From a virus: a DNA stretch of 27,471 bases. Position 1 is the stretch's first letter, and every line of letters begins with the position of its first letter. Below, in pieces: positions 1,790 through 26,708 of this stretch. Below the pieces are notes generated by a model. That model made no database searches, was not told the origin of the DNA, and saw nothing but the letters and a program-made list of their open reading frames with translations. The position numbers were made by a program, and so were the translations under genes. The DNA is taken from the IMG/VR virus record IMGVR_UViG_3300044640_001275, positions 1 through 27,471 of that record; one strand, written 5' to 3'.

Positions 1790-2161
1790 TTAATATTCTT
1801 TATACGATTTTTCTTCAACAAAAGATGAACCGTATTTAATATTAATCTCTTTTTTTATTTCCGATCTTTGATCATTTGTAACATAAACAGATCTCGCCAA
1901 TTCAATAAAGTCAGAGTCAAATTGTTTTTCCCTTTCTTTGTTTCTTATTTTATCTTCAATATCCCAAAGACGTTCATTAACAATTTGTAATTTATGAAAA
2001 TCCTCAGAATCAATCTTTAATTTATTAAATACTATTTCAAATAGGTAATCGTATTCCTTAATAATATTATTTAATTTGTCTTTGTCGGTTATGTTAAGTT
2101 TTTTAATTCTTAAAATAGATAGTTTATCTACTATCTCCCCAATTGAAACTTCTATTTCCAT
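1790..2161 (-). CDS. DUF6165 family protein
   Basis: A 123-residue soluble, charged, probably helical protein. It opens EVSIGEIVDKLSILRIKK and contains LWDIEDKIRNKE, FIELARSVYVTNDQRSEIK and a closing VEEKSYKEY. I recognise these as the conserved blocks of DUF6165, a small family usually found beside sugar-transfer and surface-polysaccharide genes; its biochemical role is unknown to me. It is the last gene of the minus-strand operon. Its ATG overlaps the stop of the upstream glycosyltransferase (TAATG), indicating translational coupling, so it most likely works with those enzymes. No cysteine or catalytic motif stands out. Confidence 0.75.
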   Translation of the reverse strand: MEIEVSIGEIVDKLSILRIKKLNITDKDKLNNIIKEYDYLFEIVFNKLKIDSEDFHKLQIVNERLWDIEDKIRNKEREKQFDSDFIELARSVYVTNDQRSEIKKEINIKYGSSFVEEKSYKEY

Positions 2162-3078
2162 TATTTATTTGTTATTAATTCAAGTAAATCGTTAAATGCC
2201 GCATTTGGTGATGGGTGACATTCATACTTTGGTTTATTTTCAAAACAACCTGGACTTTTATAACCATTCCATCTTGTTATTTTTTCATCTCCTAATACAT
2301 TATATTTCATATCTGATTGGCAAAATAATTTACAAGATCCTCCAACAAATTTATGTTTGTAATCTTGTCTTCCATTTCTGTAAGGCGTTCTATAGTAAGG
2401 ATTAATTGCGCTACCCAATTCAATTATGTTTGTGTCAGTGGTTCCTGCTAAATGTAATAACCCACTATCCATTGTGAAGATAGCAAAACTATTATTTATA
2501 ACGTGCCAAATTTGTGAAAGATTTAATTTATTACCCGTGTTAATGACATTAGGGTTATCTATCTTAAAGAAACTTTTTTTGTCATCACCATATGTAACAT
2601 CTTTACCATCAACAACAACTTTATAACCTAAGTCAAGAATCATGTTAATTAATTTTTCCCACTTCTCCTGATCCCAAGTTCTTGATTCCCAAGTTATGGA
2701 TGGGTTTACAACAACGTATCTACCTTCAGGTAGATCAATGTCCAATGGATCAGGATAGAACTCTAAGGTTCTTTCTTCGGGGGTTAAGATACACCCTAAA
2801 TGTGTTGACCAATAGTCAACTAAGTGCATCTTTCTAATTTGTTTTTGTGTGTCACCAAAGTTGTGACCATTACAATCATAAAACACAAAATCGTGTGGCA
2901 TTATTTGACCTTCTTCGGGGTTGTATATTTTGTCAACATATGGATTGTTTCTAAATATTTCTGGTCTGTTGGTCTCAACACTCAATTTACGATTATGTGA
3001 TTTACTAAAGTACTTCAATAATGGTGTGGAGTTTAACACATCACCAAAACACCCTGATATTTTAAACCCTAATTCCAT
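2161..3078 (-). CDS. Glycosyltransferase family 9 (heptosyltransferase-like)
   Basis: A 305-residue GT-B fold glycosyltransferase of the ADP-heptose:LPS heptosyltransferase type. The start is placed at the ATG at 3078, one base after the upstream stop, because that gives the family N-terminus (MELGFKISGCFGDVLNSTPLL, a G-D-x-L-x-x-T-P pattern). A longer frame would overlap the upstream gene by 26 bases. Visible blocks are NNPYVDKIY (44-52), ESRTWDQEKW (131-140) and the nucleotide-sugar region TMDSGLLHLAGTTD (202-215). Four cysteines lie near the C-terminus (249, 253, 278, 287), as in many GT9 enzymes and in TibC. It is a clear paralog of the plus-strand gene at 6075-7013. The donor sugar and the acceptor (virion protein, host surface glycan or other) cannot be read from sequence. 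Confidence 0.85.
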   Translation of the reverse strand: MELGFKISGCFGDVLNSTPLLKYFSKSHNRKLSVETNRPEIFRNNPYVDKIYNPEEGQIMPHDFVFYDCNGHNFGDTQKQIRKMHLVDYWSTHLGCILTPEERTLEFYPDPLDIDLPEGRYVVVNPSITWESRTWDQEKWEKLINMILDLGYKVVVDGKDVTYGDDKKSFFKIDNPNVINTGNKLNLSQIWHVINNSFAIFTMDSGLLHLAGTTDTNIIELGSAINPYYRTPYRNGRQDYKHKFVGGSCKLFCQSDMKYNVLGDEKITRWNGYKSPGCFENKPKYECHPSPNAAFNDLLELITNK

Positions 3079-3079
3079 T

Positions 3080-6007
3080 TTATTTTCTATTATCCATATA
3101 TACAATTACTTCACAATAATATTCTAAGAAATGATCATTATAAAGATTCCATTTTATATCAACTCCATCTACGGAGAAAACTTGTATGTTATCAAATTGT
3201 GGGAAGATATTATCTCTAAACCATTTGAACTTACATTTATGGAAATTTTCATCATCTCTCATATGGAACTCAGTGACAATCTTTGGAATTGTTTTTAAGA
3301 ATTCAATGTTACTTTGTTGGAACACATCGTATTCTCCACCTTCACAATCACACTTTAAGAAATCAATGTGTTTAATGTTATTCTCTTCTAAAAATTCTTT
3401 GAAGGTAAATGTTGGAACACTTTCACTAACATCATCCCAAGTGATATCAATTTTCTTTTTATCTGTGATTGCTCCTTGAATAATTTTAACGTTATCTCTA
3501 CCGACATTTTTATTGAGGACATCAATCTGATAAGACAATGGTTCTACAACATAACATTGTTTTGGGTTCTTTGGTAGGATCTTATATGTGAATGGACCTA
3601 ATGACGCTCCTAAATCCACAACAACATCACCTTCTTCAACCTCAAAGAATCTTTCATATATGTCATCTTCAAATATTTCTTTTATTGCGGCATCTACGTA
3701 CCAATTACTTTTTTTACCCCAATCAAAAACAATTTCATCTGATTTTTCTACCATTACTTCTTTGTTAATTATTTTATTTATTTGTTTTATTACCATGTCT
3801 GAACTTATTTGTTTTGTACATTCAAACATACGACTTGTATTTTTATGTAGTGGACACCAATTACAATCACCGGCATCTAATCTTTCTGAATTAAAACATC
3901 CGTGACAAACACTTTCGTTGATGACTCTGTATGTATCTAAAGTTGTTTCTGCCCATTTCTCACTAAACCCTGAGATTAAAACAACAGGTAGTTTACAAGC
4001 CCAAGCCAACCAACTCAATCCTGATCCAAGACCAATGAAAAATTCGCAAGATGACAAATCATCAATTACTTCTTGTAGATTACCACCTTTAAAAATTGTT
4101 ACACCTTTAGGATGAACGTTATTCATATAACCATCACCTTCTTTAGAATAAATCATACACTCATAACCTAAATCGTTAAGGTGGTCAACAACCGATTGCC
4201 ACCCGTTAGGGTTGTTCCAATACTTTGCTTGTGCGGTTGAATGGAAACCAATACCTACCTTTTTCTTTTTGGGTGTGTTAGGTAATTTTAATAGAGGTCT
4301 CACTTCCTTATAATCTAAACCTAATATGTCTGTTGCGGTTTTTTGTAACGGAATCTTTTTAAAATCAAAAGGATGTTTGTTATTATCATATTTACCGTCT
4401 TCATTGTAAAACCAACCTAATCTATATTGTGCGTGTATATTTGGAACCAAATCACCTGGTTCAACAAATTTAATGTTAGGGTACTGATCTTTAAATAAAC
4501 TATTAAGGAATGTGGAAACTATAAGTTCACAACCGTGTTTTTCTCTGAAGATTTCACAATATGGAATCCAAGCCATTGTATCCCCTAAAGATTTTGAACC
4601 AAACGAAATATAAACTCTTTTATCTTTTAGATCTAAAGTTTGGTCATATATCATTTCACCATTTTCCTCAACGGTAGTTCTCCATTTAATAAAGTATTCT
4701 TTTTTTAATTTAATCCAACTATTAATTGATAGTTCATTTTGGTAAACATTATTATTATTACCGTCATAACAATTAATTTTTAATTTGTTGTCTGATGTCC
4801 CCAACACTTCAAAATAAGGTTGTGTAACATAATGTCTAACAAACGTGTAGTCATTCTTTAATGGTTTGTTTTCTGTGACATCTAAATTACTTACCGTTTG
4901 ATACATCGCAAGTAAATCCTCACCAAATGTTTTGTCAGGTAATATCTTATACTCATCTTTACTATTAATGAGATTAACTAATTGTTTTGATATATTTTTT
5001 ACGTCACCTTCAATTGGTGTTATATAGTCATCAAACATACCCATGTATTGTGGTAAATCTCTTGCAATAATTTTCATACCGTAGTTAATTGATTCTCTAA
5101 CTACCAATGGATTACACTCCCAAGTTGAGTTAAACATTAACACATCACAAGCCGTCATGAATTTATCAACGTCAGATCGTTCCCCCCATACTTTAACATT
5201 TGAAGGTAAGTCCTTCATAATAGGTCCCCAATATTCCTCAAAGTTTGGAGCTTGGTTTCCAATGAAGTGAAATTCAATATCGGGGTTTGATTCAACTAGT
5301 TCTCTTGCAACATTAATGCCTTCACCTTGATTCTTACCACTTGTCCATAAACCAACATTAAGTACGTGAGTTTTAAACATATCTAAACCAAGTTCATTTC
5401 TAACCTTTATTTTTTCAATAAGAGGTACCTGATTAAAGTTTCCGTATATTTCGTTTTCTTTTAAAATTTCTGTTACCTTATCTTCAATAGGGTATAACGA
5501 TAAAAATTTCATTGGTTTTTCTTTTGAGAACGTATCTTTTAGATGGTAAGGTGTGACAAAACAATATGCGTCAGGATTGAACTTTTTATGTGTTTGAGGG
5601 TTAAACCAAATGTTATGACAAGTTTCAATTATTTTCCAAGTTCTATCATTTGAATATAACTCGTTCAATACCGTTAGTGGGATCTTATTAAAACTTTCAA
5701 ACCCTTCTAACATTTCTTCTGAGTGAACAATATGAATATGATTATTCTTTATAATGTCAATCAAATGAGATTTTCTTTCGGTATCTTTTGTATCACCTAA
5801 ACTAAAGAAATGACCATCACCCAATAGATTAATGATTTCATTTCTTTGTACAACATACGTATCACTAAATTTAGAAAACTCAACCAAAAATATTTCAATT
5901 TGGTCTTTAAATTTTTGAAGTTCTTTAATTCGTTTTAATACGAATTGAGGCATCCCACCTGTTGATAGATGTGGCGTTAAATATAATAATCTAATTTTAT
6001 TTCTCAT
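3080..6007 (-). CDS. Three-domain GT4 / TibC-like heptosyltransferase / FkbM methyltransferase
   Basis: A 975-residue fusion. Residues 1-375 look like a GT4 (GT-B) glycosyltransferase, with LYLTPHLSTGGMPQFV at the start, HVLNVGLWTSGKNQG near 214-228 and an E-x7-E pair (E297, E305). Residues 395-745 match the autotransporter O-heptosyltransferase (TibC/BAHT, GT9-related) pattern: EYFIKWRTTV, DLKDKRVYISFGSKSLGDTMAW, LQKTATDILGL, HSTAQAKYWNNPNGWQ, and a cysteine cluster (701, 704, 715, 718, 730) like the iron-binding site of TibC. Residues 785-975 are an FkbM-type SAM methyltransferase (DLGASLGPFT 798-807; LKCDCEGGEYDVF 884-896). It is the first gene of the minus-strand operon, one base before the next ATG. 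Expected chemistry is transfer of two sugars plus methylation of a hydroxyl. The acceptor is unknown; TibC-type enzymes modify Ser in proteins. Confidence 0.85.
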   Translation of the reverse strand: MRNKIRLLYLTPHLSTGGMPQFVLKRIKELQKFKDQIEIFLVEFSKFSDTYVVQRNEIINLLGDGHFFSLGDTKDTERKSHLIDIIKNNHIHIVHSEEMLEGFESFNKIPLTVLNELYSNDRTWKIIETCHNIWFNPQTHKKFNPDAYCFVTPYHLKDTFSKEKPMKFLSLYPIEDKVTEILKENEIYGNFNQVPLIEKIKVRNELGLDMFKTHVLNVGLWTSGKNQGEGINVARELVESNPDIEFHFIGNQAPNFEEYWGPIMKDLPSNVKVWGERSDVDKFMTACDVLMFNSTWECNPLVVRESINYGMKIIARDLPQYMGMFDDYITPIEGDVKNISKQLVNLINSKDEYKILPDKTFGEDLLAMYQTVSNLDVTENKPLKNDYTFVRHYVTQPYFEVLGTSDNKLKINCYDGNNNNVYQNELSINSWIKLKKEYFIKWRTTVEENGEMIYDQTLDLKDKRVYISFGSKSLGDTMAWIPYCEIFREKHGCELIVSTFLNSLFKDQYPNIKFVEPGDLVPNIHAQYRLGWFYNEDGKYDNNKHPFDFKKIPLQKTATDILGLDYKEVRPLLKLPNTPKKKKVGIGFHSTAQAKYWNNPNGWQSVVDHLNDLGYECMIYSKEGDGYMNNVHPKGVTIFKGGNLQEVIDDLSSCEFFIGLGSGLSWLAWACKLPVVLISGFSEKWAETTLDTYRVINESVCHGCFNSERLDAGDCNWCPLHKNTSRMFECTKQISSDMVIKQINKIINKEVMVEKSDEIVFDWGKKSNWYVDAAIKEIFEDDIYERFFEVEEGDVVVDLGASLGPFTYKILPKNPKQCYVVEPLSYQIDVLNKNVGRDNVKIIQGAITDKKKIDITWDDVSESVPTFTFKEFLEENNIKHIDFLKCDCEGGEYDVFQQSNIEFLKTIPKIVTEFHMRDDENFHKCKFKWFRDNIFPQFDNIQVFSVDGVDIKWNLYNDHFLEYYCEVIVYMDNRK

Positions 6008-6074: not shown

Positions 6075-7013
6075 ATGAAAAAAGTATGTTTAGATTTATT
6101 AGGTTGTAGGGCGTTAGGTGATACCTTGGCTTCAACTCCGACTTTAAGAAAACTTTACCACACATATGGTCAGAAAATTTCGGTTATAACTTATCACCCA
6201 TATCTATTCTCAAATAACCCATATGTTGATGTAATTTATGATGAGGTGGTTAATCCGTTAACAGATGAACAGAGACAAGAATATGAGGTCTTTAATTCAT
6301 TTAATATTGGTTATCACCCAAATGGTGTTTGTTATAAACACAATGCAATGGATATCAGACAATTTCACGCAATTAATCTTGGGTTTATGTTAACCAAAGA
6401 TGAAATGGAATTGGATTATATTTCAGATAAATACGAACCGATTGAAGGTCTACCTGAAAAATATATTTTAATTCACCCCGTTCAAAATTGGAATTCAAGA
6501 ACATGGGATGCAAAAAAATGGCAACTACTTGTAAAACTTTTAAATCAAAAAGGAATTACAGTTGTTTCAGTAGGTAAAGATTCTTCTGAACTTGGTGGAT
6601 CCAATGTGGATAAACCTGTATTTAATTTTCCAATAGAATTAGGTATGAACCTAATGAACCAAACAAGTTTATCACAAACTTGGCACCTCATCAATAAATC
6701 AATGTGTTTTATTACAATGGACTCAGGTCTATTACATTTAGCGGGAACAACAGATGTTGAAATCATTCAATTGGGTAGTTCAATTAATCCTGAGTTCAGA
6801 TCGCCATATAGAAAAGGATATCAAGAATATAAGTACCACTATGTTAGAGGTGGTTGTGGTTTAAATTGTGCTTCCGACATGAGATACGGAGTTAGAGAAT
6901 GGGGTTCAATTCAGGGGATTCCTTCGTTAGTAAATTGTTTGGAAAGAAAAGAAACATTTGAATGTCACCCAAACCCAATCATTGTCTATAATAAGGTCTT
7001 GGAAATTATATAG
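6075..7013 (+). CDS. Glycosyltransferase family 9 (second paralog)
   Basis: A 312-residue GT9-type glycosyltransferase. The N-terminus MKKVCLDLLGCRALGDTLAS is the family G-D-x-L start. It shares with the minus-strand paralog at 2161-3078 the blocks NNPYVDVIY (48-56), NSRTWDAKKW (140-149), TMDSGLLHLAGTTD (214-227) and the R-x-PYR-x-G-x-Q-x-YK stretch. Its four C-terminal cysteines (261, 265, 288, 297) keep the same C-x3-C and C-x8-C spacing as the paralog, suggesting a shared structural or metal site. It is transcribed away from the three-domain gene across a 67-base divergent region. As one of three GT9-like modules in 5 kb, it probably adds a further sugar to the same glycan. Donor and acceptor are unknown. 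Confidence 0.86.
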   Translation: MKKVCLDLLGCRALGDTLASTPTLRKLYHTYGQKISVITYHPYLFSNNPYVDVIYDEVVNPLTDEQRQEYEVFNSFNIGYHPNGVCYKHNAMDIRQFHAINLGFMLTKDEMELDYISDKYEPIEGLPEKYILIHPVQNWNSRTWDAKKWQLLVKLLNQKGITVVSVGKDSSELGGSNVDKPVFNFPIELGMNLMNQTSLSQTWHLINKSMCFITMDSGLLHLAGTTDVEIIQLGSSINPEFRSPYRKGYQEYKYHYVRGGCGLNCASDMRYGVREWGSIQGIPSLVNCLERKETFECHPNPIIVYNKVLEII

Positions 7014-7018
7014 GTCTT

Positions 7019-7029
7019 GATATTTATTA
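7019..7029 (+). promoter_or_regulatory. Recurring GATATTTATTA element
   Basis: One copy of the ATATTTAT element found upstream of many genes here, 12 bases before ATG 7042 and in the short gap after the 7013 stop. Its repeated placement suggests a phage promoter or operator; no function is proven. Confidence 0.4.
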
Positions 7030-7041
7030 TTAAAAACTATT

Positions 7042-8022
7042 ATGTCAACAACAAGACCTTTTGCGTATAATACAGGATCACCAATTGACGGAACAATACA
7101 AGTTGGTAATTTATCCATTGGTTACCCAACAACAGGATATACAGGAACCGAATGGTGGAATGGGCCCGACGAAGAATTGGGTTATGTAATTGCTCAACCT
7201 GTTTCAGGTGATACCCAACCAACACCTGTTTTTGGACAAACAGCATCCGTTGGTTTTTTTAGAACTAACGGTTTTGATGACAATGAATTTATTGATATTG
7301 CAAATATACTTTTAAATTCAAATTACGATAACGCACCTGACGCTTCAACAGGTTTAACAACAAATGGTTATTGGAATTCATATCTTATCCCTATTCTATC
7401 TTTAGATGCGGGTAACCCATTAAGTTATCCGGGTACAGGAACAGTTTGGACTGATATAATTGGCGGCAAAACATTTAATTTAGTTAATGGTCCTGGATAT
7501 GATCCGAGTAATGGAGGTAAATTTTATTTTTATGCTCCCGGTGGGCAATACGCAATATGTAACACAAGTTTACCAAGTTTAAGTACTTGGACTGTTGGTG
7601 TTTGGCATTACTACACAGGGTCGGAAACAGGCAGCGCACCTTGTATTGTTACTGAAACCTTTGTTGGTGGAGGTATAAACTATTCACTTGGTAAAAATAA
7701 TGGTCCATTTAGTGTAGGATTCTTTAATGGCGGATGGCAAGTTACGGATGGTTATTCATTAACACCAAATAATTGGTATTTTATTGTCGGAACTTACGAT
7801 GGGTCAACTATTAATTTATATGTTAACAATACGTTAGTAGATAGTACTAACTATGTGGGAACACCAACATCATCAGGTTCTGGTATAAGATTAATGGAAC
7901 GATGGGATTTATCAGATTATTGGGATGGTTATTTATCAATAGTTAACATTTATGATAAAGCGTTAAACCCAAGTCAGATAACTTCTTATTGGAACTCAAC
8001 TAAATCAAGATTCGGATTATAA
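7042..8022 (+). CDS. Phage tail/adhesin-like protein with LamG-type lectin domain
   Basis: A 326-residue protein. Residues 1-60 (RPFAYNTGSPIDGTIQVGNL, then EWWNGPDEELGYVIAQ) form a compact N-terminal module that looks like a virion attachment segment. Residues about 118-322 resemble a concanavalin A/LamG beta-sandwich: LDAGNPLSYPGTGTVWTD, the central TWTVGVWHYY, NWYFIVGTYDGSTINLYVNN, and the closing WDGYLSIVNIYDKALNPSQI. This domain type commonly binds sugars in phage fibre proteins. No signal peptide is present. It is followed within 3 bases by the Cys-rich gene at 8026, so the two are likely co-expressed. Its position amid glycosyltransferases hints that it, or its neighbour, may be a substrate. 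The tail-fibre/baseplate role is inferred from the domain type. Confidence 0.7.
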   Translation: MSTTRPFAYNTGSPIDGTIQVGNLSIGYPTTGYTGTEWWNGPDEELGYVIAQPVSGDTQPTPVFGQTASVGFFRTNGFDDNEFIDIANILLNSNYDNAPDASTGLTTNGYWNSYLIPILSLDAGNPLSYPGTGTVWTDIIGGKTFNLVNGPGYDPSNGGKFYFYAPGGQYAICNTSLPSLSTWTVGVWHYYTGSETGSAPCIVTETFVGGGINYSLGKNNGPFSVGFFNGGWQVTDGYSLTPNNWYFIVGTYDGSTINLYVNNTLVDSTNYVGTPTSSGSGIRLMERWDLSDYWDGYLSIVNIYDKALNPSQITSYWNSTKSRFGL

Positions 8023-8025
8023 TAA

Positions 8026-8553
8026 GTGTCTAACGTTATTCAAATATCAAACCCAACAGGTACTCCACCATTTAACGTTTACGTTTGTGATGTAACAAAC
8101 ACGTATTGTTATTTTGCAATAACTTTTGGTGGTGGAACAATAACCTTTGATTCTCCCGCACCATTAGAATATGCTACACCAATATTAATAAAAATAATTG
8201 ATTCCCAATTATGTGAATCATTCCAATACTACCAATGTGTTCCTACCCCAACACCGACACCAACCCCAACATTAACACCTACCGCAACAGGACCTTGTAC
8301 TTGTTGTTGTCTTGCAGTTAGTTGTGATAATGGTAGTGGAGGATCTTTCACTTATACCGATTGTTTTGGGAATGTTATAGGTAATGTTCTTGTTGCCGGT
8401 AATTCTATTGTATATTATTGTGGTAGTAATGTAACTAATTTAAGTAATGTCGTAGTTAATTACGGATCACCTTGTGTTGATGGGACTTGTGTATTACCTA
8501 TACCGACATCAACTAGTACTCCAACACCAACACCAACATCAAGTGCAAAGTAG
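8026..8553 (+). CDS. Cys-rich two-module virion-like protein with Pro/Thr linkers
   Basis: A 175-residue protein that starts with GTG, 3 bases after the preceding stop. Module 1 (residues 1-71) is beta-rich with Cys 21, 28, 63 and 71 and contains NPTGTPPFNVYVCD. A Pro/Thr alternating linker spans residues 73-89. Module 2 (90-155) begins with the cluster C91-T-C93-C94-C95 and has Cys 100, 113, 132, 150 and 155. A second Thr/Ser/Pro tail spans 158-173. I do not recognise a named family, but small beta modules strung on Pro/Thr linkers suggest an exposed structural protein. The linkers are candidate O-glycosylation sites given the GT60 gene that follows. Disulfides would not form in the cytoplasm, so the cysteines may bind metal or oxidise after lysis; that is speculation. 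Confidence 0.7.
   Translation: MSNVIQISNPTGTPPFNVYVCDVTNTYCYFAITFGGGTITFDSPAPLEYATPILIKIIDSQLCESFQYYQCVPTPTPTPTPTLTPTATGPCTCCCLAVSCDNGSGGSFTYTDCFGNVIGNVLVAGNSIVYYCGSNVTNLSNVVVNYGSPCVDGTCVLPIPTSTSTPTPTPTSSAK
8242..8292 (+). repeat. Pro/Thr-rich mucin-like linker, residues 73-89
   Basis: Codons for PTPTPTPTPT-type sequence between the two cysteine-rich modules of the 8026-8553 protein. The Thr and Pro codons are mixed (ACC, ACA, ACG; CCA, CCG, CCT), so the tract is kept at the protein level and is not a simple slippage repeat. A second tract lies at 8497-8547. Confidence 0.7.
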
Positions 8554-8584
8554 TTAATATTTGTCATAGCAGTTAATTAGTTTC

Positions 8585-8593
8585 TATTTATTA
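8585..8593 (+). promoter_or_regulatory. Recurring TATTTATTA element
   Basis: Copy of the recurring element in the 77-base gap (8554-8630) before the GT60 gene, 37 bases upstream of ATG 8631. Nothing else recognisable, including a hairpin terminator, is visible in that gap. Confidence 0.35.
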
Positions 8594-8630
8594 TTCTATC
8601 TTCATTAGTATTTTTTCCATAAAAAGAAAT

Positions 8631-9878
8631 ATGAAAATATTTGTGCAAATAGCATCCTATAGAGATCCACAATTAATTCCAACAATAAAAGATATGTTGG
8701 ATAAATCAAAAAAACCAAAAAACATTAGACTTGGTATTGCAAGACAATTTCACCCTGAAGACGGTTTTGATGATCTGTCAGAATATGAAGATGATCACAG
8801 ATTTAGAATATTAGATATTCCATATACAGAATCAACAGGTGTTTGTTGGGCAAGAAATTTAACCCAACAATTATATAACGGTGAAGAATATACCTTACAG
8901 ATTGATTCTCATATGAGATTTGAACAGGATTGGGATGACACCTTAATCAAAATGATTAAACAATTACAAAAGAAAGGTCACAAAAAACCTCTGTTAACAG
9001 GATACGTTTCTTCATTTGATCCTGATAATGACCCACAAGGAAGAGTTAAGGAACCGTGGAGAATGTCATTTGATAGATTCACACCTGAAGGATGTGTTTT
9101 CTTTTTGCCTGAAACAATACCAGGTTGGGATAAACTAAAAAGTCCAATCCCGTCAAGATTTTATTCCGCTCACTTCTGTTTTACTTTAGGTCAATTCTCT
9201 ACTGAGGTACAACATGACCCTGAGTTTTATTTCCACGGAGAAGAAATCTCAATTGCAGTTAGAGCTTACACGCATGGTTATGATTTATTTCACCCACATA
9301 AAACTGTTATTTGGCATGAATACACTCGTAAGGGTAGAACAAAACAATGGGATGATGACAAAGAATGGGGTAAAAGAAATGAAAGATGTCACCAAAAAAA
9401 TAGACAGTTATTAGGTGTTGATGGTGAAACTCCTGATAGTGATTTTGGTATCTATGGTTTAGGTACTGAAAGAACAATTCAAGATTATGAAAAATATGCT
9501 GGAGTATTGTTCTCAAAAAGAGCGGTTCAACAATACACATTAGATAAAAAATACCCACCAAACCCTTACATATATAGTTCGGAAGAAGAGTGGAAAGGAT
9601 CATTCTCTTCAATATTCAAACATTGTATTGACGTTCATTATGGTAGTGTCCCTGAAACAGATTATGATTTTTGGGTTGTGGCGTTCCATAACTCAAAGGA
9701 TGAAACGTTATATAGATTAGATGCCGGAGTTGACGAGATCAATAGAATGAAAAACGACCCTGATGGTTATTGTAAGATATGGAGAGAATTTAATGCCACT
9801 GATAAACCAACCTATTGGGTTGTATGGCCTCACTCAGTATCAAAAGGGTGGTGTGATAGATTAACAGGTAATTTATAA
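8631..9878 (+). CDS. GT60-family polypeptide GlcNAc-transferase-like glycosyltransferase
   Basis: A 415-residue protein whose first 265 residues match the Skp1/mucin GlcNAc-transferase family (GT60, Pfam GlcNAc). Blocks seen: IFVQIASYRDPQLIPTIKDM (3-22), YTESTGVCWARNLTQQLY (65-82), the metal/donor motif LQIDSHMRF (89-97; D-S-H), REPWR-type KEPWRMSFDRFTPEG (140-154), SRFYSAHFCFTLG (175-187), FHGEEISIAVRAYTHGYDLF (201-220) and WHEYTRKGRTKQWDDDKEW (228-246). Characterised relatives move GlcNAc from UDP-GlcNAc to hydroxyproline of Dictyostelium Skp1 or to Thr of Trypanosoma cruzi mucins. Residues about 300-415 are an extra domain with several Trp, of unknown function. The next gene's ATG follows after one base, so translation is coupled. 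Protein-directed activity in the phage is inference; family membership is well supported. Confidence 0.85.
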   Translation: MKIFVQIASYRDPQLIPTIKDMLDKSKKPKNIRLGIARQFHPEDGFDDLSEYEDDHRFRILDIPYTESTGVCWARNLTQQLYNGEEYTLQIDSHMRFEQDWDDTLIKMIKQLQKKGHKKPLLTGYVSSFDPDNDPQGRVKEPWRMSFDRFTPEGCVFFLPETIPGWDKLKSPIPSRFYSAHFCFTLGQFSTEVQHDPEFYFHGEEISIAVRAYTHGYDLFHPHKTVIWHEYTRKGRTKQWDDDKEWGKRNERCHQKNRQLLGVDGETPDSDFGIYGLGTERTIQDYEKYAGVLFSKRAVQQYTLDKKYPPNPYIYSSEEEWKGSFSSIFKHCIDVHYGSVPETDYDFWVVAFHNSKDETLYRLDAGVDEINRMKNDPDGYCKIWREFNATDKPTYWVVWPHSVSKGWCDRLTGNL

Positions 9879-9879
9879 T

Positions 9880-11457
9880 ATGAAGATAGTTGTTGCTCAA
9901 TTTTATACATCAAATGTTTCTTATGGTAAATTCTCTGAAGAAATAAATCAAAAATATTGTAATGATAATGGTTACGAATATTTTGTGGAACGTGATGGGG
10001 ACAAAATAAAGAATAAAATTGGATCTCGTTCTTGGACTTGGTATAAACCATTTTTAATAGAAGAAGTATTTTTAAATCACCCCGATTGTGATTACGTTTT
10101 ATTTATGGATATTGATGCCATATTTTGTAATAACAATAGAAAAATAGAGGAGTTCATTACAAATGATTTTAGTATATTAATGACAGAAGATCACGGACCA
10201 TCATTGGTTAATGCCGGTGTTATGTTATTAAAGAACAATCAATTCTCAAAAGAATTTATAAAAGATTGGTGGGACATATGTGAAGAATTTCCAAATTATA
10301 AACAAGGGTTATGGCACGACCAAACTTGTATTGGTTTACTACACCAAAGATTAAAATCACCAGAACAATTTAAAATTATTAAAAATAATGATTTTAATGC
10401 AAGGGAGTACAATGAAGAAAGGTTTATATTTCACGCATTTGCGTATGGGTCACTTCCAAACAGAAGTATTGACAACATATATAAAAAGAAATTTAATTAT
10501 GTTGATACCGTAAAAAGAGAAAACATAAATGCCATTGTGTATCACATTTATTGTGTGGGTAATTATTTAGATATTGTTAATTCTCAAATTAAAAGATTAA
10601 AAGAATCTGGCTTATACGATTGGTGTGACATTATGGAAGTTACTTGTATTGATGTTAATCAACAGTATAATGGTATTGATCAAATCTTTGATGGGATGGA
10701 TAAAGTTAATATGTTTAAAACTCATAGAAATAGTTATGAGTATTGGGCAATTAAAAAAATTTGGGACTTATCTCAAACCTATAACGGACAAGTTTTTTAT
10801 TTCCATTCAAAAGGAGTATCAAACAATTATACCAATTTAAACACAAAAGAAATAAACCAATGGAAAGTAAGTGGCATATCTTACTGGAGAGAGATGTTAG
10901 AATATTATTTAATTGATGACTTCAAAGATTGTTTATCAAAATTAGAAACTCATGATAGTTGCGGAGTCACTTGTAATGGTGGTTGGTTTTGGGGTAACTT
11001 TTGGTGGTCTAATTTATCATTTGTAAGAGAAAATTCAGAACCTGTTTTTGGTGACAGATGGTACTTTGAGGCTTGGTTAAATAAAGGTAGGGATCACAAT
11101 AGTTATGAGTATTATAAATTTAATTTTAACCCATATTTTTCTAATTTACCTACTTACATTTATAAAAATAATGAATTAAAAGAAAGGATTGTTACTATTG
11201 ATTCGGCATTTTACGGCACACTTGGTATTCAATTAGATGAGGGATATCCTAATGACATTCCATTACTCCAATCAGATGTTACGGAAAAAGTAAAACAACA
11301 TTTAACAAACAATGAGATTATGATTAATGTGGATAACACAATATTTGGTGATCCGGCATATAATCATAGAAAATTTTTATTAATTAATATAAACATTGAT
11401 GGTGAACCATATCGTGTGGTTTTTAGTGAAGGTACCCATGCAAAATTAAAATTATAA
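9880..11457 (+). CDS. Multidomain glycosyltransferase (GMA12/MNN10-like N-terminus)
   Basis: A 525-residue protein with at least two transferase-like parts. Residues 1-205 look like a GT-A enzyme of the galactosyl/mannosyl (GT34-like) kind: MKIVVAQFYT at the start, WYKPFLIEEVF (54-64), DYVLFMDIDAIF (71-82; the D-x-D metal motif is 77-79), NAGVMLLKN (111-119) and LWHDQTCIG (144-152). Residues 215-430 form a second module (YHIYCVGNYLDIV, VFYFHSKGVSN, and GGWFWGNFWWSNLSFVR at 367-383) of a type often fused to surface-glycan transferases. Residues 435-525 (DVTEKVKQHL, GDPAYNHRKFLLI) are a small beta domain distantly like DUF3395 of DnaJC11; this last match is tentative. The gene lies one base after the GT60 gene and shares its transcript. 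Substrate unknown. Confidence 0.72.
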   Translation: MKIVVAQFYTSNVSYGKFSEEINQKYCNDNGYEYFVERDGDKIKNKIGSRSWTWYKPFLIEEVFLNHPDCDYVLFMDIDAIFCNNNRKIEEFITNDFSILMTEDHGPSLVNAGVMLLKNNQFSKEFIKDWWDICEEFPNYKQGLWHDQTCIGLLHQRLKSPEQFKIIKNNDFNAREYNEERFIFHAFAYGSLPNRSIDNIYKKKFNYVDTVKRENINAIVYHIYCVGNYLDIVNSQIKRLKESGLYDWCDIMEVTCIDVNQQYNGIDQIFDGMDKVNMFKTHRNSYEYWAIKKIWDLSQTYNGQVFYFHSKGVSNNYTNLNTKEINQWKVSGISYWREMLEYYLIDDFKDCLSKLETHDSCGVTCNGGWFWGNFWWSNLSFVRENSEPVFGDRWYFEAWLNKGRDHNSYEYYKFNFNPYFSNLPTYIYKNNELKERIVTIDSAFYGTLGIQLDEGYPNDIPLLQSDVTEKVKQHLTNNEIMINVDNTIFGDPAYNHRKFLLININIDGEPYRVVFSEGTHAKLKL

Positions 11458-11471
11458 AAAAATTAAATAAT

Positions 11472-13163
11472 ATGAATGGAAATATAACATTAGTTACCGG
11501 TCTTTGGGATATGGGTAGAGGTAATCTTGAAGGATGGGCGAAAAGAGACTTTGATTATTATAAAAATAGATTCTTTGAATTTTTGGAAACAGATGTTCAA
11601 ATGTGTATTTGGATACCTAAAGATTTAGAAGATGAAGTATTAAGGATACGTGGTGATAAACCAACAAAAATATTTATTAAAAACTTGGAGGATTTTAAAA
11701 CTTGGAATCCATTCTTTGATAAAATACAAGAAATAAGAAACACAGACAGTTGGAAAAATTTTGCTGGTTGGTTAGGTGATTCCCCCCAAGCAAGATTAGA
11801 ATATTACAACCCGATGATGTTTACCAAGATGTTCATGTTAAATGATTCCGCAATTGTTAATCCATTTAATTCCGAATATCTTTTTTGGGTTGATGGTGGT
11901 TTAACAAACACAGTTAATTCAGGGTATTTTGTAAAGGACAAAGTATTAGATAATTTAGAAAACTATATGTTGTCTTTAGATAAAGAATATGTTCATATAA
12001 CATATCCTTATGAATATAACGATGAGATTCATGGGTTTGAGAGAAAACAAATGGCAAAGTATTGTAATACTGATTATGTAAATTATGTTGCAAGAGGTGG
12101 TTTCTTTGGTGGACATAAAAATACAATCCATAATATGAATACATTATATTATGGAGTTATGGAGTCAACGTTGAATGATAATTTAATGGGCGCCGACGAA
12201 TGTTTATTCACAATCATGTGTCACAAATACCATGATTTAATCCATAGATTTGAGATTGAAGGTAATGGGTTAGTGTGGCCATTTTTTGAAAACCTAAAGA
12301 AATTTGACAAACCAATTAATTTTGAAACCAAGATTAAAATTAATGATGTTGGTAGTGATATTGGTTTATATGTTATAACATTTAATTCACCAAAACAATT
12401 TGAAACTCTTATTGAGTCTATGTTATCATACGATCCATCATTCATAACTAAGACTAAAAAATACTTACTTAATAATTCAACTGATTTATCAACAACTCAA
12501 AGGTATAATGATTTATGTGAACAATATGGGTTTGAACACATTAAAAAAGATAATATAGGTATTACGGGTGGTAGACAATTTATTGCCGAACATTTTAATG
12601 ATCAAAATAATTTAAGTCATTATTATTTCTTTGAGGACGATATGTTCTTTTATGATGGTTCAGACGTAACTTGTAAGAATGGTTTTATTAGAAAAATTAA
12701 AAATATTTTTGATAACACTTTAAAAATTATTAAAGAAGAAAACTTTGACTTTTTAAAATTAAATTTTACTGAATTTTATGGTAGTCATATTAAACAATGG
12801 TCTTGGTATAATGTTCCTCAATCTTTTAGGGAATCTCATTGGGTAAACAACCCAAGATTGCCTGAACATGGTTTAGACCCTAACTCACCTAATTTAGAAT
12901 TCAAATATATTAAATCTTATAATGGTATACCATATGCCACAGGTGAGATTTATTTGTGTAATTGGCCAATAGTAATGTCAAAAGAAGGTAATTACAAATG
13001 TTATCTTAAAACAAAATTTAGTATGCCTTACGAACAAACTCTTATGTCCCATTGTTATCAGGAAATGGTTAAAGGTAAAATAAAAGGATCTGTTTTACTT
13101 GCAACCCCAACAAATCATAACAGATTTGATTTTTATGATGGTAAATTAAGAAAAGAATGTTAA
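11472..13163 (+). CDS. Bimodular glycosyltransferase (HtrL/WlaTC-like plus GT-A module)
   Basis: A 563-residue protein. Residues 1-285 resemble the HtrL/YibB-WlaTC family: ITLVTGLWDMGRGN (5-18), RLEYYNPMMFTKMFML (108-123), NPFNSEYLFWVDGGLTN (130-146), and ARGGFFGG (207-214) followed by ADECLFTI. Residues 296-563 look like a second GT-A module: GLYVITFNSPKQFETLIESM, NIGITGGRQFIAEHF (361-375), the acidic metal-binding motif YFFEDDMFF (385-393), and an SMPYEQTLMSHCYQE block near 517. It ends the plus-strand glycosyltransferase run that began with GT60, with 14 bases and no recurring promoter element before its ATG. It probably extends the same glycan. Exact donor and linkage cannot be assigned. 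Confidence 0.7.
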   Translation: MNGNITLVTGLWDMGRGNLEGWAKRDFDYYKNRFFEFLETDVQMCIWIPKDLEDEVLRIRGDKPTKIFIKNLEDFKTWNPFFDKIQEIRNTDSWKNFAGWLGDSPQARLEYYNPMMFTKMFMLNDSAIVNPFNSEYLFWVDGGLTNTVNSGYFVKDKVLDNLENYMLSLDKEYVHITYPYEYNDEIHGFERKQMAKYCNTDYVNYVARGGFFGGHKNTIHNMNTLYYGVMESTLNDNLMGADECLFTIMCHKYHDLIHRFEIEGNGLVWPFFENLKKFDKPINFETKIKINDVGSDIGLYVITFNSPKQFETLIESMLSYDPSFITKTKKYLLNNSTDLSTTQRYNDLCEQYGFEHIKKDNIGITGGRQFIAEHFNDQNNLSHYYFFEDDMFFYDGSDVTCKNGFIRKIKNIFDNTLKIIKEENFDFLKLNFTEFYGSHIKQWSWYNVPQSFRESHWVNNPRLPEHGLDPNSPNLEFKYIKSYNGIPYATGEIYLCNWPIVMSKEGNYKCYLKTKFSMPYEQTLMSHCYQEMVKGKIKGSVLLATPTNHNRFDFYDGKLRKEC

Positions 13164-13167
13164 TTGC

Positions 13168-13192
13168 AATATTTATTGTAAAAACAATAAAT
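13168..13192 (+). promoter_or_regulatory. Recurring AATATTTATT element within a perfect inverted repeat
   Basis: AATATTTATT at 13168-13177 is another copy of the recurring element. It overlaps a perfect inverted repeat with 9-base arms (ATTTATTGT at 13171-13179, ACAATAAAT at 13184-13192) and an AAAA loop. The right arm covers the first two bases of the ATG at 13191. The dyad could be a protein-binding operator, or an mRNA hairpin that masks the start codon. Confidence 0.5.
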
Positions 13193-13769
13193 GGAATTTT
13201 ACATTAAGAAAAATGCTACGTTGCCCGTTTTAAAGATGCAAGTCGTTAAGGACGGTAGAAGTGATTATAACAAGATGATGGAAATGATTGAGGAGGCTTC
13301 TATCTTCTTTTCTATGGTAGATACTGAAACAGGAATTCCACGAATCGTTACAAGACCTGCGGGGTTTGTTGAGAAGAAATTATTAGACCCAAATGCAGAA
13401 TACGAATACTATGTGTATTATCAATTTACACCAAACGACACAAGAAAGGTTGGTAGATATGAAGGTCAGTTCTTATTAAGAAATTCAGATGGTACATTAA
13501 TTTTACCAATTAGAGAAAAACTATATATAAACGTACAGGAAAGTTTTATTGCGGACGATCTTCCGTATGAATCTTGTTATGTTGTTAGTTTCCCTTGTTG
13601 TGTAAGTATTCCAACGACAACCACAACAACCACAACTCCTTGTCCTTCTTGTAGACCTTGTTGTCCGCCAACACCGACACCGACAACTACAACGACTACA
13701 ACAATAATACCAACTACAACAACTACAACGTTTATACCAATCACAACAACTACAACATTTCAAGGTTGA
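13191..13769 (+). CDS. Virion-associated-like protein with poly-Thr mucin-like tail
   Basis: A 192-residue protein. Residues 1-125 form a beta-rich domain (MEFYIKKNATLPVLKMQVVK, FFSMVDTETGIPRIV, YEYYVYYQFTPNDTRKVGRY, LPIREKLYINVQESF) reminiscent of phage baseplate or tail-associated proteins; I cannot name the family. After Cys 129, 136 and 137 comes a low-complexity tail (140-192) with Thr runs of 8, 7, 6 and 5 residues, a Cys/Pro cluster (PCPSCRPCCPP) and Ile-Pro spacers; 28 of the last 52 residues are Thr. Thr codons are mixed, so the tract is selected as protein. The tail resembles T. cruzi mucin acceptor repeats (T8KPP), which are GT60 substrates. It lies directly after the glycosyltransferase run. 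Structural role and glycosylation are inference. Confidence 0.7.
   Translation: MEFYIKKNATLPVLKMQVVKDGRSDYNKMMEMIEEASIFFSMVDTETGIPRIVTRPAGFVEKKLLDPNAEYEYYVYYQFTPNDTRKVGRYEGQFLLRNSDGTLILPIREKLYINVQESFIADDLPYESCYVVSFPCCVSIPTTTTTTTTPCPSCRPCCPPTPTPTTTTTTTIIPTTTTTTFIPITTTTTFQG
13608..13766 (+). repeat. Poly-Thr mucin-like tract, residues 140-192
   Basis: Thr runs of 8, 7, 6 and 5 separated by Pro, Ile and Cys. Codons within the first run are ACG, ACA, ACC, ACA, ACA, ACC, ACA, ACT, so the tract is not a uniform triplet expansion. It is the longest candidate O-glycan acceptor in the window. Confidence 0.75.
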
Positions 13770-21105: not shown

Positions 21106-21618
21106 ATGGCGAATAGAGTTCCTATAACAAGATTAGGTAAATTTTTTGGAGAAAACGATTTTAACCTTGAAGTTGAGATGGGTCAAGAGTGGTTAGTTGG
21201 TGATATGAATTACACTTGTGTGCTTTATAGAGTTGATAAAACCAAAACTAAAATTGACAACGTATATGGTGAAACAGTTAAAGATGGGATTAAATTTTTA
21301 CCCCCTGTTGAGTTTAACGCATATGTTGCGATTGCCGCACCTGAGAATAAATTTTTAGGTTCTACTAAAATGGATCAGTTTGAACCAGGAAATATTACAA
21401 TGTCAGTTTATTTAAAAACTTTAGAAGATTTAGAAATTGATATTCAATTTGGTGATTATGTTGGTTATTACGATACGGAAAGTTTTGTGAGATACTATAC
21501 CGTTGTTAATGATGGTCGTGTCACTTCAGATATAAAACATACTTATAAAGGGTATAAACCTTTTTATAGAACAATAATGGGATCACCTGTTGGTCCAAAT
21601 GAATTTAGAGGATTATGA
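21106..21618 (+). CDS. Probable head-tail connector/neck structural protein
   Basis: A 170-residue protein from ATG 21106. A longer frame from 20980 exists, but it runs over the helicase gene and the divergent promoter, and its first 42 residues look like non-coding translation. Sequence blocks are MANRVPITRLGKFFGENDFN, YTCVLYRVDKTKTKIDNVYGE, FEPGNITMSVYLKTLEDLEI and QFGDYVGYYDTESFVRYYTV. The regular beta pattern and the context (start of a plus-strand block leading to the sheath) suggest a connector or head-closure protein in the position of T4 gp14. I cannot confirm the family. It overlaps the next gene by 4 bases (ATGA), so the two are translationally coupled. Confidence 0.6.
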   Translation: MANRVPITRLGKFFGENDFNLEVEMGQEWLVGDMNYTCVLYRVDKTKTKIDNVYGETVKDGIKFLPPVEFNAYVAIAAPENKFLGSTKMDQFEPGNITMSVYLKTLEDLEIDIQFGDYVGYYDTESFVRYYTVVNDGRVTSDIKHTYKGYKPFYRTIMGSPVGPNEFRGL

Positions 21619-23366: not shown

Positions 23367-26300
23367 ATGGCAACTAACGGTAAAGTATTCGTATCACCTG
23401 GTGTTTATACTTCTGAAGTGGATTTAAGTTTTGTAGCACAAAGTGTGGGGGTTACCACATTAGGTATTGCAGGTGAAACTTTAAAGGGTCCGGCTTTTGA
23501 ACCGATATTCATCAAAAATTATGAGGAATTTCAAACGTATTTCGGTGGTACATCCGCTGAAAAATTTGTGAACACACAAATCCCTAAGTATGAGGCGGCT
23601 TACATCGCTAAATCATATTTACAACAATCTAATCAATTATTCGTAACAAGAATCTTAGGTCTTTCAGGTTATGATGCGGGACCATCATGGTCTATTATAA
23701 CACAAGCAAATGTTGATCCTAATACGATTGACTTTTATTGTGAAGATCCACAAATCGTAGATTGTTTACCTTATTGTGATCCGGCAGATTATAAAACATT
23801 AAACTATACTGTAGAATTTACGGGATGTTCAAACTCACAAGCGTCAATTAGTTATGTAACTAATTTCCCTGATGAAATTGAAAATCTTTTAACTGTTCCT
23901 TTTGAGCAATTCAATGGTAACACATCAACATTAGAAACCCAAATCAATAATTTGATTTCTGATGTATTAACAGATGCTAATCCATTAACCGCACAAACTA
24001 ACACAATTGAATATTTTGGTTCTATATACGGTCCTGACTACGATACATTGTCAACAGTTTTCACAAATGAAACTAATGTTTATGGTGTACCTTCAGTATC
24101 AAGTACTTTGACTGATTATACGTCACCATTCAACGATCCTTGGTATTATTCATTGTTTTCTAACAATGGTAACAATAGTTATTCAGGATTCTCATTCTTT
24201 GCATATGTTGATGATTTGACTTTAATACCGGTAACTACAACAACAACAGTCGCAACAACTCCAACTCCTACACCATCAGCGGTTAATCCATGTGCTACGG
24301 CAACACCAATGCCGTCACCAACACCTACACCAACTGCGGTTAATAACAATTGTTATACAGGTACTATTAATGGAACAATTTATTATTACACAGGTACATC
24401 TTACACTGAGTACGATAATTTAGTTGTTGGTACATTAAGATCAAGAGGTATTGCGACATATGAGGACTCTACAAACCCAGTATTTGAAGTAACAGACATT
24501 AATCATGTTACTATAGATATGAGTGGTCAGTATTCAGGTGTTACTAAAAACCCTTACTTACCATTTTTAATCAATGTTACAAATGATGAAGGTACTTCAT
24601 TTACGTTTGAAACTTCATTCGCAACTTCAGATTCTCAATATATTTCTAAAGTATTCGGAGCAACTAACTTCCAAAAACCAAGAAAAAATGTTCCTTTATT
24701 CTTAGAGGAAAGATTCCAAGCGTTATTAAACTACGGATGGAACAAAGGATACATTAGAGGTTTGAGTTCAGAATTAATAGCGTTAGATTCAGCACAAAGT
24801 GGACAACAAGATAGTATTGGATGGTACTTAGATAGATACCAATCACCAAGTACTCCTTGGATTGTTTCTGAGTTAAGAGGTACAAAAGTATTTAACTTAT
24901 TCAAGTTCTACTCAATTTCTGATGGTAATTCAGCAAACTCTGAAATTAAAGTTTCACTTTTCAATATGTCATTCTCCAATGGAACGTTTGATGTAATTGT
25001 AAGAGATTACTATGATTCAGATGCTAACCCAACAGTTTTAGAGAAATTTACAAGTTGTAGTATGGACCCAAGTCAAAATAATTTCATCGGTAAAAAAATC
25101 GGATCTTTAGACGGAGAATACGCATTGAACTCTAAATTTGTAATGGTTGAGATGAATGAAGATGCACCTGTTGATTCATTACCTTGTGGTTTTGACGGAT
25201 ACACATTCAGAGAGTACGATGGTGTTACACCTCCATTCCCTGTTTACAAAACTAAATATGATTTCCCAGGTGAAGTTGTATATAACCCACCGTTCGGATT
25301 TACAAACGGTAACGATGATTCCATCAGATCAAATGGTGATAACGTTAGAAGAACTTATTTAGGTTTCTCTAACAACATTGGATTTGATACTGACTTCTTC
25401 CAATACAAAGGAAAACGTGCTCCAATTGACTTATGTAATGTTGATGGAGTTGAATGGGGTTATCAAACAAGAGGATTCCACATGGATAAAGACGCTAGTG
25501 TTATTGAAATAGGACCGGCATTTGCAACAAGTGGAACACCTAAATACTATGTTGGTGATGCTACATTCCAACAAGAACCTACAAGTGAAACAAGTCCATA
25601 TTACAGAATTTACTCAAGAAAATTCACAACAATGTTCTATGGTGGTTTTGATGGATGGGATATCTATAGAGAATACAGAACAAACGGAGACAGATATGTT
25701 TTAGGTAGAACTGGATTCTTGAATGGAGCTTGTCCTTCACCAAGATACCCAACCGCAACAGGATGGGGATCATTTAAACAGATCTCAATCGGTGATGGAA
25801 CACAAAGTTTTGCAAATACTGACTACTACGCTTACTTATTAGGAATCCAAACATTCTCTAATCCTGAGGCGGTTAACATCAATGTATTTGTATCTCCAGG
25901 TATTGACTATGTAAACAATAGTGACTTAGTTGAATCAACAATTGATATGATTGAAAACAACAGAGCTGACTCATTGTATATCACAACAACACCTGACTAC
26001 AACTTGTTCTTACCAACAACTACAGGTGGTGATGGATTAATTTACCCACAAGAAGCGGTTGACAACTTAGAACAAACAGGAATTGACTCTAACTACACGG
26101 CAACTTACTACCCATGGGTATTAACTCGTGATAGTGTGAACAATACGCAAATCTACATCCCAGCAACGGCTGAGGTGACAAGAAACTTGGCATTGACCGA
26201 TAACATTGCATTCCCATGGTTCGCAGCAGCAGGTTACACAAGAGGTATTGTAAACTCAATCAAAGCTCGTAAGAAGTTGACTCAAGAAGATAGAGATACT

Positions 26301-26708
26301 CTTTACCAAGGAAGAATCAACCCAATCGCAACCTTCTCTGATGTTGGTACGGTAATTTGGGGTAATAAGACTCTTCAAGTTAGAGAATCTGCACTTGATA
26401 GAATCAACGTAAGAAGATTATTATTACAAGCTCGTAAATTGATTTCAGCAGTTTCTGTGAGATTGTTGTTTGATCAAAACGACGAACAAGTAAGACAAGA
26501 CTTCTTAAATGCGGTTAATCCGATCTTAGATGCTATCAGAAGAGACAGAGGTTTATACGACTTTAGAGTTACGGTTTCAAGTGACACTGAAGACTTAGAT
26601 AGAAATCAATTAGTAGGTAAAATCTATATCAAACCAACTCGTTCTTTAGAGTTCATAGATATAACATTCTACATCACTCCAACAGGAGCATCGTTTGATA
26701 ATATCTAA
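23367..26708 (+). CDS. Contractile tail sheath protein with large inserted mucin-like domain
   Basis: A 1113-residue tail sheath, far longer than T4 gp18 (659). The N-terminus (KVFVSPGVYTSEVDLSFVAQ, TTLGIAGETLKGPAFEPIFI, LFVTRILGLSGY to residue 102) and the C-terminus (RINVRRLLLQARKLISAVSV, FLNAVNPILDAIRRDRGLYD, DRNQLVGKIYIKPTRSLEFI) are the conserved sheath ends that interlock neighbouring subunits. Between about 110 and 400 is extra sequence with Cys 125, 133, 137, 154, 309 and 329 and a Thr/Pro tract at 288-326. In T4 such insertions lie on the outer surface of the tail, so this tract is probably exposed. The gene has an A-rich leader and ends at a strong hairpin terminator, consistent with very high late expression. 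Confidence 0.93.
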   Translation: MATNGKVFVSPGVYTSEVDLSFVAQSVGVTTLGIAGETLKGPAFEPIFIKNYEEFQTYFGGTSAEKFVNTQIPKYEAAYIAKSYLQQSNQLFVTRILGLSGYDAGPSWSIITQANVDPNTIDFYCEDPQIVDCLPYCDPADYKTLNYTVEFTGCSNSQASISYVTNFPDEIENLLTVPFEQFNGNTSTLETQINNLISDVLTDANPLTAQTNTIEYFGSIYGPDYDTLSTVFTNETNVYGVPSVSSTLTDYTSPFNDPWYYSLFSNNGNNSYSGFSFFAYVDDLTLIPVTTTTTVATTPTPTPSAVNPCATATPMPSPTPTPTAVNNNCYTGTINGTIYYYTGTSYTEYDNLVVGTLRSRGIATYEDSTNPVFEVTDINHVTIDMSGQYSGVTKNPYLPFLINVTNDEGTSFTFETSFATSDSQYISKVFGATNFQKPRKNVPLFLEERFQALLNYGWNKGYIRGLSSELIALDSAQSGQQDSIGWYLDRYQSPSTPWIVSELRGTKVFNLFKFYSISDGNSANSEIKVSLFNMSFSNGTFDVIVRDYYDSDANPTVLEKFTSCSMDPSQNNFIGKKIGSLDGEYALNSKFVMVEMNEDAPVDSLPCGFDGYTFREYDGVTPPFPVYKTKYDFPGEVVYNPPFGFTNGNDDSIRSNGDNVRRTYLGFSNNIGFDTDFFQYKGKRAPIDLCNVDGVEWGYQTRGFHMDKDASVIEIGPAFATSGTPKYYVGDATFQQEPTSETSPYYRIYSRKFTTMFYGGFDGWDIYREYRTNGDRYVLGRTGFLNGACPSPRYPTATGWGSFKQISIGDGTQSFANTDYYAYLLGIQTFSNPEAVNINVFVSPGIDYVNNSDLVESTIDMIENNRADSLYITTTPDYNLFLPTTTGGDGLIYPQEAVDNLEQTGIDSNYTATYYPWVLTRDSVNNTQIYIPATAEVTRNLALTDNIAFPWFAAAGYTRGIVNSIKARKKLTQEDRDTLYQGRINPIATFSDVGTVIWGNKTLQVRESALDRINVRRLLLQARKLISAVSVRLLFDQNDEQVRQDFLNAVNPILDAIRRDRGLYDFRVTVSSDTEDLDRNQLVGKIYIKPTRSLEFIDITFYITPTGASFDNI
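24228..24344 (+). repeat. Thr/Pro mucin-like tract inside the sheath, residues 288-326
   Basis: Encodes PVTTTTTVATTPTPTPSAV followed by Cys and PMPSPTPTPTAV. The composition matches the linkers of the 8026 and 13191 genes. It lies in the non-conserved central insertion of the sheath, flanked by Cys309 and Cys329, and is a candidate surface O-glycosylation site. Confidence 0.7.

Follow-up and report, generated by a model that had tools for sequence, protein, structure and literature searches.

A GT60 glycosyltransferase locus with Thr/Pro-tract proteins suggests mucin-type O-glycosylation of virion proteins in an uncultured contractile-tailed phage

A 27.5-kb fragment of an IMG/VR virus record (IMGVR_UViG_3300044640_001275, positions 1 to 27,471; hereafter the window, meaning this whole stretch) encodes a GT60-family glycosyltransferase amongst proteins carrying threonine/proline (Thr/Pro) tracts, and the gene cluster around this enzyme probably specifies a phage-run, mucin-type protein O-glycosylation pathway that would operate in the cytoplasm on tracts of tail, baseplate, and sheath proteins. 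The locus encodes dense Thr/Ser/Pro domains together with an enzyme of the initiating type, the combination expected of a mucin-type system. Since the pairing of GT60 with tract proteins recurs in unrelated phages and in some bacteria, the virus probably coats its own particles with sugars. Gene products were assigned by profile searches (Pfam, PHROG), and the source of the window is, judging from its virus record, a tail sheath (phrog_23), DNA polymerase B, and an SNF2 helicase, an uncultured tailed bacterial virus with a contractile tail. Phage virion glycosylation is already known, and the GT60-tract version is a new form of it; the few known cases usually give no rule to tell which proteins carry the modification.

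The GT60 enzyme and the tracts of the window

The GT60 protein matches PF11397 significantly and over nearly its full length, in two stretches covering profile positions 2-43 and 98-349 of 352. An alignment of 24 GT60 sequences shows D92-S93-H94 and H229 to be invariant. A DxH...H metal site is a feature of the GT27 N-acetylgalactosamine (GalNAc) transferases, which the phage D92-S93-H94...H229 arrangement presumably resembles. The AlphaFold2 model of the enzyme is weak (predicted local distance difference test score, pLDDT, 64) and shows a low-confidence GT-A fold, for which Foldseek retrieved GalNAc-T2, GalNAc-T4, and Toxoplasma GalNAc-T3 among GT2 enzymes, mostly with template modelling (TM) scores below 0.4. 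Teichoate and chondroitin enzymes appear alongside the GalNAc transferases, and the fold therefore does not settle the acceptor. Sequence comparison of GT60 with solved structures gave no match, and the same comparison of the HtrL_YibB-domain partner and the tract protein with the PDB gave nothing meaningful. In the CAZy classification, GT60 comprises polypeptide alpha-N-acetylglucosamine (GlcNAc) transferases that start mucin-type O-glycans, on the basis of work in Dictyostelium and Trypanosoma cruzi, and the same review covers the cytoplasmic Skp1 hydroxyproline pathway (PMC8724618). No open-access paper tying GT60 or PF11397 to phages was found.

The tract of the gene directly upstream of GT60 consists of VPTPTPTPTPTLTPTAT and LPIPTSTSTPTPTPTSSAK, that of the second tract gene, 3.3 kb downstream, consists of SIPTTTTTTTTPCP, a T8-Pro run, and PTPTPTTTTTTTIIPTTTTTT, and the tail sheath carries TTTTTVATTPTPTPS in the large region preceding its conserved C-terminal part. 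All three outscore every one of 2000 residue shuffles of their own protein, the sheath tract narrowly (15 versus a maximum of 14). The codons are mixed (ACA, ACT, ACC, and ACG for Thr; CCA, CCT, and CCG for Pro), and Tandem Repeats Finder detects degenerate 9/18/27-bp arrays at 8245-8289 and 13683-13757. Because the shuffles are exceeded and the codons mixed, the tracts appear to be maintained at the protein level and not by slippage alone; a simple DNA microsatellite origin was rejected on the mixed synonymous codons. The tail of the second tract protein is predicted to be without structure (AlphaFold2 pLDDT mostly ~50 or lower), and its N-terminal domain has a weak Foldseek match to the phage NF5 baseplate protein 9m8o_P. 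An earlier note on this DNA had placed GT60 between two Thr/Pro-tract genes, with further glycosyltransferases around it and a similar tract in the sheath. The profile and shuffle results bear out this layout, the surrounding enzymes being two GT9 proteins, a GT4-GT9-FkbM fusion, a GT34-like protein, and an HtrL_YibB-domain protein.

Recurrence of the pairing in viruses and bacteria

At least 436 relatives of the window GT60 were found in IMG/VR by pattern and tblastn searches, and neighbouring genes were clustered for 28 dereplicated GT60 loci plus the window. GT60 is present in all 29 of these loci, and its most constant partner is the HtrL_YibB homologue (27/29), followed by the N-domain family of the second tract protein (20/29; 12 family members carry tracts). 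Between these three constant genes lies a variable set that includes GT9, GT4, GT34, GT2, GT11, sulfotransferase, FkbM and other methyltransferase, DegT aminotransferase, and carbamoyltransferase families, a layout that would suit a glycan with a constant start and a variable finish. A tract open reading frame occurs in 75 of 81 sequences (the window and 80 viral loci). Counts drawn from the 28 dereplicated loci place the end of a tract gene within 300 bp upstream of GT60 in 15/24 and a tract gene within 8 kb in 19/22.

The association extends to complete or near-complete phages. Those with GT60 contain TPTPTPT sites (XacN1, 16; RAS14, 6; CM1, 6, its GT60 being detected by tblastn only), and the 11 complete or near-complete phages without GT60 contain none (SCTP-2, Phosso, CBB, Vibrio 2.275, RaK2, XaC1, 121Q, LR756508, Bellamy, Mel-JY01, and immuto; the family search for Bellamy was run on its IMG/VR copy, G084). 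The difference of 3/3 versus 0/11 gives a Fisher p of 0.003, or 0.013 when CM1 and RAS14 are counted as one. In the reverse test, GT60 was found on 12 of 36 contigs picked solely by the pattern (TP)4T, compared with 0 of 17 picked by a control pattern (p 0.005). A T4-like control based on the Bellamy sheath yielded mostly short contigs, few of them usable, and some contigs without GT60 are pieces of the same lineage and were not used for any contrast. Six long AT-rich viral contigs (L248, L281, L306, L311, L319, and L320) carry many Pro/Thr (PT) tracts with no GT60 detected, and are either fragmentary or dependent on a different initiating enzyme.

In two crAss-like contigs (L583 and L588), the muzzle protein (PF25729, 1.1e-19) contains PT tracts, as does the product of another gene next to GT60. 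These contigs are binned as Planctomycetaceae and Gammaproteobacteria metagenome-assembled genomes (MAGs), and a DXD glycosyltransferase accompanies their GT60. The 4.5-Mb genome of the bacterium Jiulongibacter sediminis has three TPTPTPT sites, all of them in one gene that stands between two GT60 genes, each within ~240 bp; a second genome, G389, likewise has its PT gene between two GT60 genes and next to one of them. The pairing in crAss-like contigs and bacteria is not explained by lineage inheritance alone. Several bacterial PT proteins begin with a signal-like segment (Tat-like in L587, SRRTFVRRL), which would fit modification before export. In two Bacteroidota genomes, Jiulongibacter being one of them, the PT-tract gene between two GT60 genes (L605, 7384-11952; L581, 7942-11227) encodes a protein with a shared N-terminus (KKGLNRRLAL.ELFLGSS), and carbamoyltransferase and FkbM-YibB genes come after the Jiulongibacter copy. 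In G371, which belongs to the order of Jiulongibacter, a GT60 gene and a 2-oxoglutarate (2OG)-Fe(II) oxygenase gene (PF13640, 7e-11) overlap by 17 bp (L604, 9035-10532), an arrangement reminiscent, in a bacterium, of the prolyl hydroxylase and GlcNAc transferase that act on Skp1.

The earlier note had proposed surveying relatives for co-occurrence of GT60 with Thr-rich proteins and held that its absence would count against the idea. Co-occurrence was found in at least four settings: the aquatic myovirus lineage, XacN1-like jumbo phages, crAss-like contigs, and Bacteroidota genomes. The tract-bearing proteins across these settings appear to include the tail sheath, a crAss muzzle homologue, and a baseplate-like protein (a weak match).

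Proposed pathway, precedents, and alternatives

During virion production, GT60 would transfer the first sugar, probably GlcNAc or another N-acetylhexosamine from a uridine diphosphate donor, onto Thr/Ser of the intrinsically disordered Thr/Pro tracts of newly made tail proteins in the host cytoplasm, the acceptors being tail, baseplate, and sheath proteins of the same phage. The constant HtrL_YibB partner and the strain-variable GT9, GT4, GT34, GT2, and GT11 enzymes would then extend the glycan, with methyl-, sulfo-, and carbamoyltransferases joining in its extension and capping, and through this variable finishing set related phages would wear different coats. Such a glycan may serve as a shield against antibodies, proteases, or decoys, may render exposed linkers resistant to proteases, or may act in adhesion to mucus or host. 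The claim of the earlier note that the phage O-glycosylates its own virion proteins gains from the genomic linkage and the enzyme family; the action of GT60 on tract Thr, the acceptor, the donor and identity of the sugar, the order of the enzymes and the extension of the glycan, and its use, including a masking or mucus-binding role, are inferred. The chances appear even that prokaryotes and their viruses own a mucin-type system in which GT60 and dedicated Pro/Thr-tract proteins form a unit that moves between chromosomes and phages as unrelated as contractile-tailed, jumbo, and crAss-like ones, with swap-in extension and capping enzymes that produce phage-specific coats.

Independent published support for glycoproteins in a GT60 phage comes from the Xanthomonas jumbo phage XacN1, which combines GT60, reported glycoproteins, and the TPTPTPT sites described above. 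According to the available portions of its published account, proteomic analysis of the virion detected at least two glycoproteins, and the phage glycosyltransferases ORF328 and ORF334 were named as their possible makers (PMC5852040). ORF334 is a GT60 enzyme, 46% identical to that of the window, and a carbamoyltransferase gene stands beside it. The same portions of that account mention neither the GT60 family nor mucin-like tracts nor a link between them. The proposed pathway resembles the protist mucin-type O-GlcNAc system of T. cruzi and Dictyostelium in its enzyme family, its Thr-rich, Pro-containing tracts, and the extension of the glycan by further enzymes (PMC8724618), and differs in being phage-encoded, with bacterial cytoplasm as its predicted site, putative virion tail proteins as acceptors, and strain-variable extension enzymes. 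Mycobacteriophage virions carry glycans on capsid and tail-tube proteins (Freeman et al. 2023, as cited in PMC12619734); these lie at the C-termini and are, in the sections of the citing paper that were available, not described as involving GT60 or PT tracts. The Moraphages, large aquatic phages with four putative glycosyltransferases in their core group, may be comparable (PMC12619734).

Several observations weigh against the proposed pathway. The evidence for the window phage comes from sequence and predicted structure, and a GT60 model with a pLDDT of 64 cannot tell polypeptide from glycan or teichoate acceptors. A link between the XacN1 glycoproteins and tract proteins is putative, and the TPTPTPT sites nearest to GT60 in XacN1 and RAS14 lie 9 kb and 39 kb away. 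Clustering of tract sites near GT60 is modest within aquatic contigs (combined p 0.004) and absent in those two phages. No GT60 was detected on 24 of the 36 tract contigs, some of them long, and tracts therefore do not strictly require GT60, though many of the contigs are fragmentary. Amongst bacterial and MAG GT60 loci, 9 of 14 have no adjacent tract, and the pairing of a bacterial GT60 with a 2OG-Fe(II) oxygenase means that GT60 substrates may differ.

The tracts could be unmodified flexible linkers or spacers, with GT60 acting elsewhere and the genes being neighbours through a shared variable tail-fibre/glycan region. Surface proteins often contain Pro/Thr linkers, some tract-bearing contigs have no detected GT60, and many unrelated insertions mark the region as a variable island; this explanation is nevertheless unlikely given that the pairing is seen again in unrelated phages and on bacterial chromosomes without a tail module, that a PT gene is enclosed by two GT60 genes in Jiulongibacter and G389, and that not one TPTPTPT site occurs in the jumbo relatives of XacN1 that lack GT60. 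It is quite improbable that the cluster instead alters the host surface (lipopolysaccharide or capsule) in the manner of serotype conversion and thereby blocks superinfection. GT9, HtrL_YibB, FkbM, DegT, and the sulfo- and carbamoyltransferases are typical of surface polysaccharide loci, yet such a role would lead one to expect neither the glycoproteins of XacN1 nor the tract link, the GT60 enzymes that have been characterised modify protein (PMC8724618), and flippase, polymerase, and GtrA/B are not among the best 25 of the 69 neighbour families.

Glycosylation of phage DNA (hypermodified bases) by GT60 and its partners, as a defence against restriction, is very improbable. Some phages are known to have glycosyltransferases that modify DNA (cited in PMC12619734), DNA polymerase B (13855-16653) follows the cluster, a carbamoyltransferase adjoins the XacN1 GT60, and the YibB partner has a bacterial homologue with a weak TAGT match (E 0.0036). 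Against this stand the presence of GT60 beside PT-protein genes in bacterial chromosomes and, weakly, the Tet/JBP oxygenase PF12851 in 0 of 15 GT60 records, a search without a positive control. There is only a very slight likelihood that GT60 uses hydroxyproline of the Pro/Thr tracts as its acceptor, in the way that Gnt1 modifies Skp1. The Skp1 route is known (PMC8724618) and the oxygenase overlap at L604 would be in keeping with it, but this route is improbable in GT60 phages because, of 15 large GT60 phage records, just 1 has a PF13640 protein, and neither XacN1 nor RAS14 has any; tract 2 is moreover mostly poly-Thr with few Pro. As a candidate for these phages it was largely rejected, the prolyl hydroxylase partner being absent from nearly all records.

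If the proposed pathway is correct, the GT60-tract rule would allow glycosylated virion proteins to be predicted from the sequences of many environmental phages, and the cultured GT60 phages XacN1, RAS14, and CM1 make it testable. Phages would then bear mucin-like, possibly variable sugar coats, with bearing on immune recognition, mucus, and host adhesion, and a type of glycosylation known mainly from eukaryotes would reach bacteria and their viruses.

Other features of the window

The cluster and its surroundings are listed in Table 1. The LamG structural gene sits between the GT9 gene on the plus strand and the first tract gene.

Table 1. Glycosylation cluster, candidate substrates, and adjoining genes of the window
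Feature	Position	Strand	Evidence
GT60-family glycosyltransferase, predicted initiating polypeptide O-HexNAc transferase, 415 aa	8631..9878	+	PF11397 E 1.1e-73; phrog_24687 E 1.4e-168
Thr/Pro-tract protein, candidate substrate, directly upstream of GT60	8026..8553	+	tracts beat all shuffles
Tract protein, beta-rich N-domain and disordered T8-Pro/PTPT tail, candidate substrate, baseplate-like	13191..13769	+	
Tail sheath with Thr/Pro tract, candidate substrate	23367..26708	+	phrog_23 E 3.6e-55 (residues 823-1111); PF17482 E 4.6e-9
HtrL_YibB-domain enzyme	11472..13163	+	PF09612 E 7.4e-18
GT34-like (GMA12/MNN10)/DUF273 glycosyltransferase, variable position	9880..11457	+	PF05637 E 5.2e-13
GT9 (heptosyltransferase-type) glycosyltransferase	6075..7013	+	PF01075 E 4.5e-15
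GT9 glycosyltransferase	2161..3105	-	PF01075 E 1e-11
GT4 + GT9 + FkbM methyltransferase fusion, 975 aa	3080..6007	-	PF00534 8.7e-10; PF01075 1.7e-5; PF05050 1.4e-11
LamG/concanavalin-like phage structural protein, without tract	7042..8022	+	PF13385 E 1.5e-20; phrog_8510 virion structural protein 1.2e-9
DNA polymerase B, downstream of cluster	13855-16653		

The 975-aa phage protein joins three enzymes (GT4, GT9, and FkbM methyltransferase) in one product. Another phage-encoded fusion, an unusual one, lies at 18164-19252 (minus strand), where an iron/manganese superoxide dismutase (PF02777, 1.6e-39; PF00081, 5e-20) follows a zincin-like N-terminal part (LAHEWVHAYQ). Tail proteins rich in glycine (PF21722), with pronounced, repeated runs of Gly, are encoded in tandem at 26-853 and 864-1772 (plus strand), and a long antisense open reading frame opposite the first of them is probably mechanical. 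A homologue of mycobacteriophage L5 gp82 (PF25735, 7e-29) is encoded at 21615-22043 (plus strand) in this AT-rich phage.

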